64,000 bases of DNA from Aminipila luticellarii (GTDB lineage Bacteria > Bacillota > Clostridia > Peptostreptococcales > Anaerovoracaceae). Positions within the stretch are counted from its first letter, which is position 1. Every line of letters begins with the position of its first letter. Below, in pieces: positions 16,725 to 34,402 of the stretch. Where the stretch lies: contig NZ_CP035281.1 in the NCBI RefSeq assembly GCF_004103735.1, positions 744,001 to 808,000 of the forward strand. The letters run 5' to 3'. A program made the translations under genes and the position numbers. The notes below the pieces were generated by a model. It ran no database searches. It was not told the origin of the DNA and saw nothing but the letters and a program-made list of their open reading frames with translations.

Positions 16725-17672
16725 TTACTCCTGTTTTGTTTGTATTGATTTATTTTTGATTTCTTTGCCCTTTATGGGGGGGGTTTTGTCATACGCTTTA
16801 ATTGGAACAGGACCTTTTAAGGCCGTGCGCTTAATAAACAAGGTGCCGTCTTTTTTAGAGTGAACCCGCCAGGCCACTAAAATAAGTTTCCCGTAGATTA
16901 ACTCCAGACAGGTGATACCCCGTGGATGCATACCGCATCCCACGTTAAAATATGAAGATTCTCCGGGATCGGGGAATTTTGGTCTATGGGTATGCCCGCA
17001 TATGATAATGGTATCATTTTGTGCATTCCATTTTGTATAGTTTTTTTCAACCTTGTGCATTTTACGTCTGCTCTTTGCAGGGCTTGCCGCGTAACGCACG
17101 CCGATTAAGTGCATAAAATGCCAGAAGAACCGAATGATAAAATGGGAAATAAAAGCCAGCTGATCGTTGATCAAATCTCCCTGATGGCCATGCACCACAA
17201 AAATTTCCTGATGTGTTTTCTTATGTTTAAAACGAAAAGCCTCATAGACCTTCAAGCCGGGAAATAAATCCACCTTTTCCCCCAGATATTCGTCGTAAAC
17301 ACTGTACATATTCTTTTCAACCCAATCCGGGGATTTCATCTTCATATTATGATTGCCGAAAATGATATACAGTCTGCCGGCATCATAAAATTCCTTAAGC
17401 TTGTTGAACACCGAGAAATGACTGTTTCTTATGTGTTCAAAATTGGAATTTTCCCAAAGCTCATCCCCATCACCGACTTCAACATATGTAAAATCGTTCT
17501 GGTAATAATAATTTAATGCATGGTAAAAAATATGTTTATTTTTTCCAAATTCATCTGCAATACTGTCGTCTCCACGATGTGTATCACCAAAAAATACGAA
17601 TTTTGATGTATCGTCGAAAGGGATTTCCTTTGCATTTTTATAAACTTCGTTTAATCTTGAAATTGTTTTCAT
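16725..17672 (-). CDS. Metallophosphoesterase
   Basis: 315 residues of the calcineurin-like phosphoesterase fold. The metal-binding motifs are all present: GDTH (29-32), GDGDE (68-72), GNHN (106-109), HGH (161-163) and GHTHR (226-230). The layout resembles UDP-2,3-diacylglucosamine hydrolase-like proteins, but a Clostridium relative does not make lipid A, so the substrate is unknown. The C-terminal 45 residues are Lys-rich. Its start overlaps the yprB stop by 4 bases (ATGA), so translation is coupled. Confidence 0.85.
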   Translation of the reverse strand: MKTISRLNEVYKNAKEIPFDDTSKFVFFGDTHRGDDSIADEFGKNKHIFYHALNYYYQNDFTYVEVGDGDELWENSNFEHIRNSHFSVFNKLKEFYDAGRLYIIFGNHNMKMKSPDWVEKNMYSVYDEYLGEKVDLFPGLKVYEAFRFKHKKTHQEIFVVHGHQGDLINDQLAFISHFIIRFFWHFMHLIGVRYAASPAKSRRKMHKVEKNYTKWNAQNDTIIICGHTHRPKFPDPGESSYFNVGCGMHPRGITCLELIYGKLILVAWRVHSKKDGTLFIKRTALKGPVPIKAYDKTPPIKGKEIKNKSIQTKQE

Positions 17673-18685
17673 TTTGGTATTATTACCTCCAAAATCCGCT
17701 CCATTAGTATTTTTATAAAGTGATTTGTTTCCATATAATTTATAGAATTCCCTTGCTTTAATACTACAAAACCATTGTCATAGGTATCATATTTTTGCAA
17801 GTCAGAAAAATCTTTTTCAAAAGCTTTTGTATCCGCGATAATTAATCCGGACTTTCTTATTATGGGCAGATTTACGTAAAATTCTTCAGAAAATCTGTTA
17901 AAATTTAAGGAGCAGGGACAATTATCCAGATCATAGGCACAGTAGGTCAATGGATTCTTTTGATGCCCGGAAATTTTAATATCTTTGGATTCAAAAGAAA
18001 TTTTAGAAATATGTAAGTCTCCTATGGGAAAACCCAAGGAAAAAAAGGCTTTATGAATATCAGATTTTTCTAAGACAGGAAGAAGCTGCGAAAGCTGCAG
18101 AACATCGTCGCTGTTATGAAGCATGATTAAGCGGCGAAGCTCTTCGCTTTGAGTCACTAAAAAACGCTGGTACATTTCTACGCTTTCAGCTCCTGAAATT
18201 TCATCCGTTCTGGCAGACCAGAGCCCCATAAAGTTTTCAACCGTTTTTTGCTTTAGATTCGGCAATAATTTTCTTAAAGAAGAATGCCCGTTTAACAGAA
18301 GGTATAAGTCTAAGTTATAGGGAAATTGATAATCCGGATATATGTTTAATCTCTGCATTCGTATCTTCAAAAAATTCAGATCGAAATGTTTGCCATTATA
18401 GGTAATAACAATATCTAAGTTTTTTATATCATCCAGGAAGGCAATCAGTGTATCTTTTTCTTCTTCCAGGCTCTCGGCAAAATATTGTTTTAATGTTGCT
18501 CCTGAGTCTGTATAAATCAGAAGCCCTCCGAGGATAAATTGACTGGTGCGTGGGGATAATCCGGTTGTTTCAATATCTAATACGCCTATTTTACTGCTGT
18601 CGATATTGCCTATATAAAAATCTAAAAGACGTGATTGGTATTTCGTATATTTATTATCTATATAATCGTTCTGCATTATGTACAT
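17669..18685 (-). CDS. yprB: YprB-like RNase H-fold (DEDDh) exonuclease
   Basis: 338 residues with a ribonuclease H-like exonuclease domain in about residues 30-210: VLDIET (D37, E39), YNGKHFD (97-103) and HNSDDV near 210. Such proteins are predicted 3'-5' exonucleases; the function of YprB is not settled. I start at ATG 18685, 10 bases after AGGATGG; the frame stays open to 18865, but the extra 60 codons are not domain-like and would read through the terminator of the candidate small RNA upstream. First gene of the yprB-phosphoesterase-proA operon, with an extended -10 promoter at 18792-18800. Upstream, the word GCAACGCCGCT occurs twice (18737 and 18765). Confidence 0.82.
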   Translation of the reverse strand: MYIMQNDYIDNKYTKYQSRLLDFYIGNIDSSKIGVLDIETTGLSPRTSQFILGGLLIYTDSGATLKQYFAESLEEEKDTLIAFLDDIKNLDIVITYNGKHFDLNFLKIRMQRLNIYPDYQFPYNLDLYLLLNGHSSLRKLLPNLKQKTVENFMGLWSARTDEISGAESVEMYQRFLVTQSEELRRLIMLHNSDDVLQLSQLLPVLEKSDIHKAFFSLGFPIGDLHISKISFESKDIKISGHQKNPLTYCAYDLDNCPCSLNFNRFSEEFYVNLPIIRKSGLIIADTKAFEKDFSDLQKYDTYDNGFVVLKQGNSINYMETNHFIKILMERILEVIIPK

Positions 18686-18791: not shown

Positions 18792-18800
18792 ATTATACCA
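18792..18800 (-). promoter_or_regulatory. Extended -10 promoter for the yprB operon
   Basis: On the minus strand the sequence reads TGGTATAAT, a full extended -10 element; no good -35 is seen. It is located between the terminator of the small-RNA candidate and the yprB start, giving an mRNA leader of about 100 bases. Confidence 0.6.
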
Positions 18801-18820: not shown

Positions 18821-18914
18821 ACAAAAAACAAAATAGACCGCAGGGGTGCAGTCTATTTTGTTCAAAAGGGGTATTGGGATTAGAGATTAATGAGGTTATC
18901 AGGGGGATAACCAC
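18821..18914 (-). ncRNA. Candidate C-rich small RNA
   Basis: A self-contained minus-strand unit: a promoter at 18921-18949, a predicted start at G 18914, a 7-bp hairpin GGTTATC-CCCCT-GATAACC (18894-18912), a single-stranded stretch with ATCCC and ACCCC, and an intrinsic terminator at 18827-18862 (12-bp stem plus an inner GCA/TGC stem closed by a CCCC loop, then a T-rich tail). Length about 94 bases. All loops are C-rich. In Firmicutes, sRNAs such as RsaE/RoxS use such motifs to pair with G-rich ribosome sites. No open frame is present. The yprB operon has its own promoter further on, so this is not simply its leader. Homology was not checked. Confidence 0.6.
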
Positions 18915-18920
18915 AACGTT

Positions 18921-18949
18921 ATTATACATAAATTTGTCGTAATATGCAA
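18921..18949 (-). promoter_or_regulatory. Promoter of the candidate small RNA
   Basis: On the minus strand TTGCAT (18949-18944), a 17-base spacer and a perfect TATAAT (18926-18921). The predicted start is 7 bases downstream, at the first bases of the first hairpin. Confidence 0.7.
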
Positions 18950-19099
18950 GAGTTCGTCGCAAAAAACTATAAAAAAATATATTTTGACGTTCACTTTCTA
19001 TATAAATTGGATTTTATTACCTATATAATTAAAACATAAACAATAGCTTAGCCCAAACGAAAGGGGTAACACAAATAATTATTTAGGAGGATACAAGTA

Positions 19100-19360
19100 A
19101 TGGAAGTTTTAAAAGTGTCAGCAAAGTCAAATCCCAATTCTGTAGCAGGAGCACTGGCAGGTGTGCTGAGAGAAAAGGGAGATGCAGAGATACAGGCCAT
19201 AGGGGCTGGAGCTTTAAATCAGGCTATAAAGGCTGTTGCAATTGCCAGAGGGTTTGTAGCACCGGGAGGAGTAGACTTGGTTTGTGTGCCAGCATTTACA
19301 GATATACAAATTGATGGGGAAGAAAGGACTGCCATCAAATTAATTATTGAACCTCGCTAA
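19100..19360 (+). CDS. spoVS: Stage V sporulation protein S
   Basis: 86 residues, the normal SpoVS length, an Alba-like small protein needed for coat assembly and progress past stage V in Bacillus. The whole sequence fits the family: MEVLKVSAKSNPNSVAGALA, GAGALNQAIKAVAIARG and a TAIKLIIEPR end. TTAGGAGG lies 10 bases before the ATG. The 190 bases upstream contain the divergent promoter of the small-RNA candidate; no SigH-type promoter was obvious. A structured RNA element follows the gene. Confidence 0.96.
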   Translation: MEVLKVSAKSNPNSVAGALAGVLREKGDAEIQAIGAGALNQAIKAVAIARGFVAPGGVDLVCVPAFTDIQIDGEERTAIKLIIEPR

Positions 19361-34152: not shown

Positions 34153-34170
34153 ATATTGGACAATAGAGAA

Positions 34171-34338
34171 ATATTGTAGGTGCCCGGGGATTCCTACCGG
34201 GAGAATAGGGAAGTTGGGTAAAAGCCCACGCGGTCACGCCGCTGTAATGGAAGAGTCGTGCTTCATGAAGCCACTGTGTAAAAATGGGAAGGAGAGTACG
34301 ATGTTGACGCCAGAGTCAGAAGACCTGCCTACGGTATC
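34171..34338 (+). promoter_or_regulatory. Cobalamin (B12) riboswitch aptamer
   Basis: Classic order of elements: GTAGGTGCC at the 5' side, GGGAGAATAGGGAAG, GGTAAAAGCCCACGCGGTC, ACGCCGCTGTAA (B12 box region), and the 3' side GACGCCAGAGTCAGAAGACC followed by TGCCTAC pairing back with GTAGG. It lies before a cobalamin-synthesis operon, so feedback by adenosylcobalamin is expected. A translated frame across 33959-34396 is spurious. Confidence 0.95.
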
Positions 34339-34402
34339 GGATTCTGTTCGGTCGTTCAGACTGCAACAGAGGTTACACTTTTTTTGCGAAGGATGAATAA
34401 GT

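Follow-up and report, generated by a model that had tools for sequence, protein, structure and literature searches.

To our knowledge, trans-acting small RNA (sRNA) families that are kept over many bacterial families appear to be rare in Firmicutes. RsaE has been called the only sRNA besides 6S that is common to Staphylococcus aureus and Bacillus subtilis (PMC4409812). SpoY (nc020) of Clostridioides difficile is described as binding G-rich targets that resemble ribosome binding sites and as repressing the translation of spo0A; its start site is described as common to it and the downstream gene CDIF630_00827 (PMC10267692). Here we describe a predicted sRNA of Aminipila luticellarii that is common to hundreds of related anaerobic bacteria, Clostridioides among them. 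The analysis confirms a real, conserved, C-rich family and supports its assignment to a known functional kind. The alignment could seed the annotation of this family, which is absent from Rfam 15.

Anatomy of the sRNA unit

All coordinates are positions in the window, that is, the whole 64,000-nt stretch of A. luticellarii NZ_CP035281.1 that was analysed (744,001 to 808,000). On the minus strand, positions 18949-18822 comprise a promoter, a hairpin of 7 bp whose loop holds a C-run, a linear stretch that contains two more such runs, and a strong terminator. The predicted sRNA (18822..18914, minus strand) would be transcribed from a start near 18914, as judged from the -10 hexamer, which gives a length of about 93 nt and agrees with the 94-base unit of the initial annotation. 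The elements announced there are all present on this strand. The 5' hairpin GGTTATC/GATAACC (18894..18912) has a perfect 7-bp stem and a CCCCT loop, as borne out by sequence, fold and covariation. It is followed by a conserved single-stranded stretch with the runs ATCCC and ACCCC (18862..18893; sequence, fold and alignment) and by an intrinsic terminator hairpin with a CCCC loop (18826..18863; sequence, fold and relatives), whose U-tract extends to about 18822. The folding energy of the sRNA has a z-score of -8.6 and none of 200 shuffled sequences is equally stable. By blastn the locus is single in the A. luticellarii genome, the second match being the terminator palindrome on the other strand.

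The promoter consists of a -35 element TTGCAT (18944..18949, minus strand), a 17-nt spacer and a -10 element TATAAT (18921..18926, minus strand). These parts are as first reported, while the epithet 'near-perfect' was overstated, the -35 hexamer matching TTGACA at only three of six positions. A consensus scanner listed neither the sRNA promoter nor the sRNA terminator at the A. luticellarii locus. In 171 distinct loci the spacer is 17 nt in 155 and 16 nt in 16, and the -10 is exactly TATAAT in 105; this regularity is partly by construction, since the script takes the best-looking promoter of each locus. TTG at -35 is common among the relatives, and the conservation across the 171 loci supports the predicted promoter despite its weak -35 element. 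The form TTG-17-TATAAT found in relatives is that of a sigma-A-type promoter; by comparison with their consensus, no sigma-F or sigma-G promoter was recognised at the sRNA.

The upstream neighbour is the divergent gene spoVS (19100..19360, plus strand), and downstream lies a yprB-like gene with the Pfam domain RNase_H_2 (17669..18685, minus strand). The strand that the unit shares with the yprB-like gene and the distance of 136 nt between the unit and the yprB-like start would suit a leader or attenuator of yprB. We regard such a role as highly improbable, given the strong terminator and a separate yprB promoter, whose -10 element (18792..18797, minus strand) stands in the TGGTATAAT context, the extended -10 that had been proposed. 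Moreover, the co-directional gene is different or absent in other families. The order spoVS/sRNA/yprB-like recurs, by eye, in Emergencia timonensis, and within the A. luticellarii family the sRNA often lies between these two genes. In Peptostreptococcaceae and relatives of Tissierella the gene upstream is iscS or another one, divergent in either case, and downstream there is a gene for asparaginase or else an ABC-transporter operon that converges on the sRNA (gene names assigned by eye). Because the neighbours vary by family, we take the sRNA to be free-standing rather than a yprB leader or attenuator. Thus the initial annotation, which held that the unit stands alone and would fall if it proved to be an attenuator always continuous with yprB, withstands this check.

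Structure and distribution among relatives

In 57 distinct sequences two-sided changes are found at all 8 pairs of the aligned 5' hairpin. Covariation amounts to 19 cells, as compared with 5.5 in shuffles, none of 500 shuffles scoring as high; of the eight pairs, that of columns 14 and 44 is open in 39 of the 57 sequences. In a larger set of 201 distinct loci, gathered by a lenient core pattern and including a few doubtful ones, 182 have a C-run enclosed by a hairpin of 6 bp or more. A terminator-like hairpin within 130 nt is found in 180 of the 201 (about 8 in shuffles), and these hairpins are built from 114 different stem arms. Among the 21 loci that have none within this distance are two from Clostridioides (L223 and L227), whose terminator lies further out; one Clostridioides copy folds with a terminator at the far end. 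A CCCC run is present in the 5' hairpin region of 124 of 130 distinct loci, the exceptions being L016, L038, L053, L066, L075 and L100. In all of these six except L038, the linear C-stretch was seen to be kept while the C-run of the hairpin loop is lost. The linear stretch holds most of the invariant positions of the alignment. Its near-invariant 22-nt core is one of two sequences in 111 of 120 loci, a proportion inflated by the retrieval of 80 of the 120 with that same pattern. Conservation and covariation thus give strong support to a free-standing sRNA whose hairpin, C-runs and terminator are all conserved.

Blastn detects the sRNA in 40 of 61 genomes (A. luticellarii and 60 relatives) that belong to several families. 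A covariance model was made from 57 sequences hand-picked among 88 non-redundant cores, with L016 and L053, which have no C-run loop, among those excluded. In a draw of 393 genomes from the order of A. luticellarii it finds the sRNA in 279 (258 of them at E<=1e-6), and in 113 of the 158 genera that were sampled. The covariance search among related Clostridia that had been suggested as a check therefore reveals broad conservation, along with the covarying hairpin. In a draw of 398 genomes from the phylum, strong matches are confined to the A. luticellarii genome and one genome of the same family; six further weak matches (E 0.003-0.01) look like noise. A match in genome G645 (E 8e-4) lies inside a coding frame and was likewise regarded as noise. 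Searches of more than 40 genomes used strict filters, with no more than 13 candidates scored in each genome, so that diverged members may be missed in these counts.

An exact-pattern scan of named genomes yields at least 120 stretches. Among the matches listed are Emergencia timonensis, Anaerovorax odorimutans, Romboutsia, Tissierella, Schnuerera, Anaerosalibacter, Anaerosolibacter and Clostridiales Family XIII genomes. In the NCBI taxonomy Tissierella belongs to Tissierellales and Romboutsia to Peptostreptococcales, so that the family may reach beyond a single order. The genomes of some Peptostreptococcaceae have two to four strong copies each in addition to weaker ones, and certain copies stand in tandem about 200 nt apart. 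Examples are L217 and L231 (G503), L219 and L233 (G552) and L218, L232, L234 and L236 (G669), although the G669 assembly is fragmented and one of its copies may be a duplicate contig. The latter genome also has a weak match (L237 on G669:C344, E 1.8e-4) beside another gene, with extra C-runs and promoter-region sites like TTTGTCGAA; it possibly represents a second subfamily.

Spo0A-box-like sites at the sRNA promoter

The spacer of the A. luticellarii promoter contains a Spo0A-box-like site, TTTGTCGTA (18933..18941, plus strand), that matches TTTGTCGAA at 8 of 9 positions. A weaker one, TTCGTCGCA (18953..18961, plus strand; 7 of 9), is found just upstream of the -35 element, near the second preferred box position of the relatives. 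We take TGTCGAA to be the core of the Spo0A box. Of 171 distinct loci, 51 have TGTCG at exactly -13 relative to the -10 element, the very place of the TTTGTCGTA site. Its complement is there in 5 of the 171, four of which are A. luticellarii and members of its genus. The rate of TGTCG is 0.0081 per base near the promoter and 0.0012 further upstream.

The Spo0A status of the same 393 order genomes was taken from a Pfam Spo0A_C search, with canonical and other Spo0A separated at E 1e-25, a cut of our own choice that was fixed when the script was written. The comparison covers 126 of 130 loci, leaving out two without the core and two whose upstream sequence is too short. Looked for on both strands of the 45 nt that precede the -10, the exact 5-mer is present in 40 of the 73 genomes whose Spo0A is canonical and in 2 of the remaining 53 (Fisher 2e-10), a test inflated by the relatedness of the genomes, which are not independent. 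Within the A. luticellarii family the corresponding figures are 17 of 48 and 0 of 49. Shuffling, done like the position comparison on hand-copied locus lists, gives 1.6 for the canonical genomes (40 observed) and also 1.6 for the others (2 observed). For the 9-mer, 59 are observed against 11.6 in shuffles (maximum 18) in canonical genomes, while the 14 of the non-canonical ones are slightly above the shuffled mean of 8.0 and within the maximum of 15. Relative to the -10, the 9-mers begin preferentially at -15 and -35, two positions 20 bp apart.

The upstream control region is also enriched in boxes (exact core in 15 of 73 canonical genomes and 1 of 53 others; 14 of 48 and 1 of 49 in the A. luticellarii family), and some of these boxes may belong to the divergent spoVS. 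Two genomes without a Spo0A_C match (G047 and G054) have perfect boxes. The enrichment upstream notwithstanding, a box at the promoter goes in step with Spo0A, as in a Spo0A regulon. This is strong circumstantial evidence that the family is tied to Spo0A, which would bind at the boxes. As for the sign of its action, a box in the spacer would be expected to repress, whereas one that abuts the -35 could activate.

spo0A as a candidate target

The reported repression of spo0A by SpoY in C. difficile led us to consider this gene as a target. Its Shine-Dalgarno sequence is unusual. GGGGG, which is complementary to the hairpin loop, precedes spo0A in 17 of 18 distinct order genomes, as compared with 34 of 567 genes from the A. 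luticellarii window and sRNA-bearing contigs and with 8 of 27 spo0A genes outside the order (two of the eight being identical), in a comparison that counts homologues as independent. The order sample consists of 20 hand-chosen spo0A genes (L312-L331) from genomes with both canonical Spo0A and the sRNA. L316 was not counted, being the same as L315, nor was L322, whose start was mis-called and which by eye has GGGGGG before GTG. The 27 outside genes are those that could be read among the 30 best-scoring loci, and the start-calling rules differ inside and outside the order; the outside rule reads only 11 of the 20 order genes.

The energy of the duplex between loop and spo0A has its median at the best 5% of the 567 genes. 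Pairing of the linear C-stretch with spo0A is unremarkable (median at the best 20%). When the A. luticellarii genome was searched, with one mismatch allowed, for complements of a portion of the linear stretch, 14 sites came up, the locus itself being one of them, against 22 for the backwards control, so that there is no enrichment. Pairing of the C-runs with ribosome binding sites, which the analogy with RoxS suggests, thus has circumstantial support from the spo0A ribosome site, and spo0A mRNA is a candidate target.

A proposed role in the Spo0A circuit and its alternatives

As an explanation of the whole we favour, and hold to be somewhat probable, a C-rich sRNA that blocks Shine-Dalgarno sequences within the Spo0A circuit, with spo0A as one candidate target. 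Such a free-standing, trans-acting RNA of about 90-150 nt would be made from its sigma-A-type promoter. Its exposed C-runs in the hairpin loop and linear stretch, and in A. luticellarii also in the terminator loop, would pair with G-rich Shine-Dalgarno sequences and thereby block the translation of its targets. In A. luticellarii it would do so without a recognisable Hfq; indeed, the whole genome contains no match to Hfq (Pfam PF17209) at E<=1e-3. In spore-forming members Spo0A would bind the boxes in and beside the sRNA promoter and control the sRNA, and a CCCCCU loop may pair with the GGGGG ribosome site of spo0A mRNA to feed back on the sporulation decision. The full version of this model is a two-way loop, in which Spo0A acts on paired boxes 20 bp apart and the C-loop blocks a maintained GGGGG site of spo0A, setting an order-wide sporulation threshold in an Hfq-free manner; we think it rather unlikely. 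If the sRNA does belong to the Spo0A circuit, it would offer a general explanation of how sporulation is tuned in Clostridioides, Romboutsia and their relatives.

A different main role, metabolic or general like that of RsaE/RoxS, in which Spo0A merely tunes the sRNA of spore formers and spo0A is no target, is plausible yet somewhat doubtful. Among the 393 order genomes, 212 have both the sRNA and a Spo0A_C match, 30 have Spo0A_C only and 84 neither, while 67 keep the sRNA without a Spo0A_C match, 63 of them with strong sRNA matches. Of the 53 loci that lack canonical Spo0A, 52 retain the CCCC loop, as do all 73 of those with canonical Spo0A; CCCCC is found in 46 of the former and 70 of the latter (Fisher 0.09). 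The persistence of the C-loop without canonical Spo0A indicates that it is not kept for spo0A alone, which thus cannot be the only target, and the invariant positions, mostly in the linear stretch, also favour a general role. Counting against such a role are box presence that tracks canonical Spo0A and the GGGGG Shine-Dalgarno of spo0A in 17 of the 18 order genomes sampled. The near-invariance of the 22-nt core, inflated as it is by the retrieval, could also mean that the linear stretch is a protein-binding site and that the RNA titrates an RNA-binding protein. This appears improbable, the exposed C-runs resembling the C-rich regions by which RoxS is described to pair with its targets (PMC5419742). 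On a separate point, the Spo0A_C matches in several genomes of the A. luticellarii family are all divergent (about E 1e-7 to 1e-25) and may come from Spo0A-like proteins that are degenerating or have been repurposed.

The favoured role in the Spo0A circuit recalls SpoY, and the sRNA could be the wider family of SpoY, with the A. luticellarii copy a homologue. Indeed, Clostridioides (genus g379) carries a copy; in one member of the genus (locus L316) the published SigH promoter of spo0A is found with no substitution and one inserted base. The sRNA copy adjoins iscS and is near a pilin gene, which we take to be pilJ/CD0755. Rough gene-number scaling would place it in the neighbourhood of CDIF630_00827 on the 630 chromosome. 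SpoY is reported to block the spo0A ribosome site and to have G-rich targets (PMC10267692), in line with such a relationship. Against it, the stretch between the Clostridioides copy and the convergent ABC operon (G484) has no ORF of 80 aa or more in the direction of the sRNA, there being only ORFs of 29 and 70 aa antisense to the ABC gene. On balance we rate this homology as possible, at a little under an even chance.

Comparison with known RNAs

The initial annotation could name no RNA family for the unit, and a search of Rfam 15 gave no match that attains a family's cut-off, whether at the A. luticellarii locus or in six relatives. Elsewhere in the window a Cobalamin riboswitch scores above the Rfam cut-off (34161-34346, plus strand). 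MIR397 gave a weak match far below its cut-off and was dismissed. So was LhrC (RF00616), at 24.3 bits for a cut-off of 110 (E 0.16), although this Listeria RNA resembles the sRNA in having a hairpin, a linear CCC stretch and a terminator with a CCC loop, and the several copies per genome of some A. luticellarii relatives add to the likeness.

CsfG (ylbH motif, RF00516) of Bacillus is likewise C-rich and linked to sporulation, and is described with conserved CU-rich loops (PMC3574147, PMC8216469). C-richness, the spoVS neighbour and a GCATA near the -35 had suggested that the sRNA is CsfG. This identity was rejected: the relatives have a -10 of the TATAAT kind, and a search of both strands of the A. 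luticellarii locus gave no RF00516 match up to E 10. Nor does RF00516 exceed its cut-off in any of 11 genomes, and its five sub-threshold matches in A. luticellarii all lie away from the sRNA locus. CsfG differs in its control by sigma-F/G, the sRNA described here having a sigma-A-type promoter.

Other described RNAs of Clostridioides were set aside. SpoZ is reported at 528 nt with other neighbours (PMC10602386). RCd2, RCd4, RCd5, RCd6, SQ1002 and SQ1498, the growth-phase sRNAs that appear in Table 3 of a study with 251 candidates, have other neighbours as well (PMC3649979). A literal literature search for a core 10-mer returned no paper that is by its title on a clostridial sRNA. In the literature as available, supplements and most subscription papers aside, no description was found of an order-wide family, of its Spo0A boxes or of the shared spo0A ribosome site.

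Exposed C-runs, the size of an sRNA, its own promoter and its own terminator are the features of the C-rich, Shine-Dalgarno-blocking class, and the sRNA has all of them. RoxS/RsaE and FsrA are likewise described to use several C-rich regions for pairing with G-rich target sites (PMC5419742, PMC8216469). Neither is among the Rfam matches up to E 10 at the A. luticellarii locus, and they differ in their reported regulators, ResDE and Fur (PMC8216469). SpoY was found by Hfq RIL-seq, whereas the A. luticellarii genome is without an Hfq match. It is also presented as 5'UTR-derived with a co-directional gene, unlike the free-standing sRNA described here. What would unite the two is pairing with G-rich ribosome sites and repression of spo0A translation, a feature reported for SpoY (PMC10267692) and predicted for the present family.
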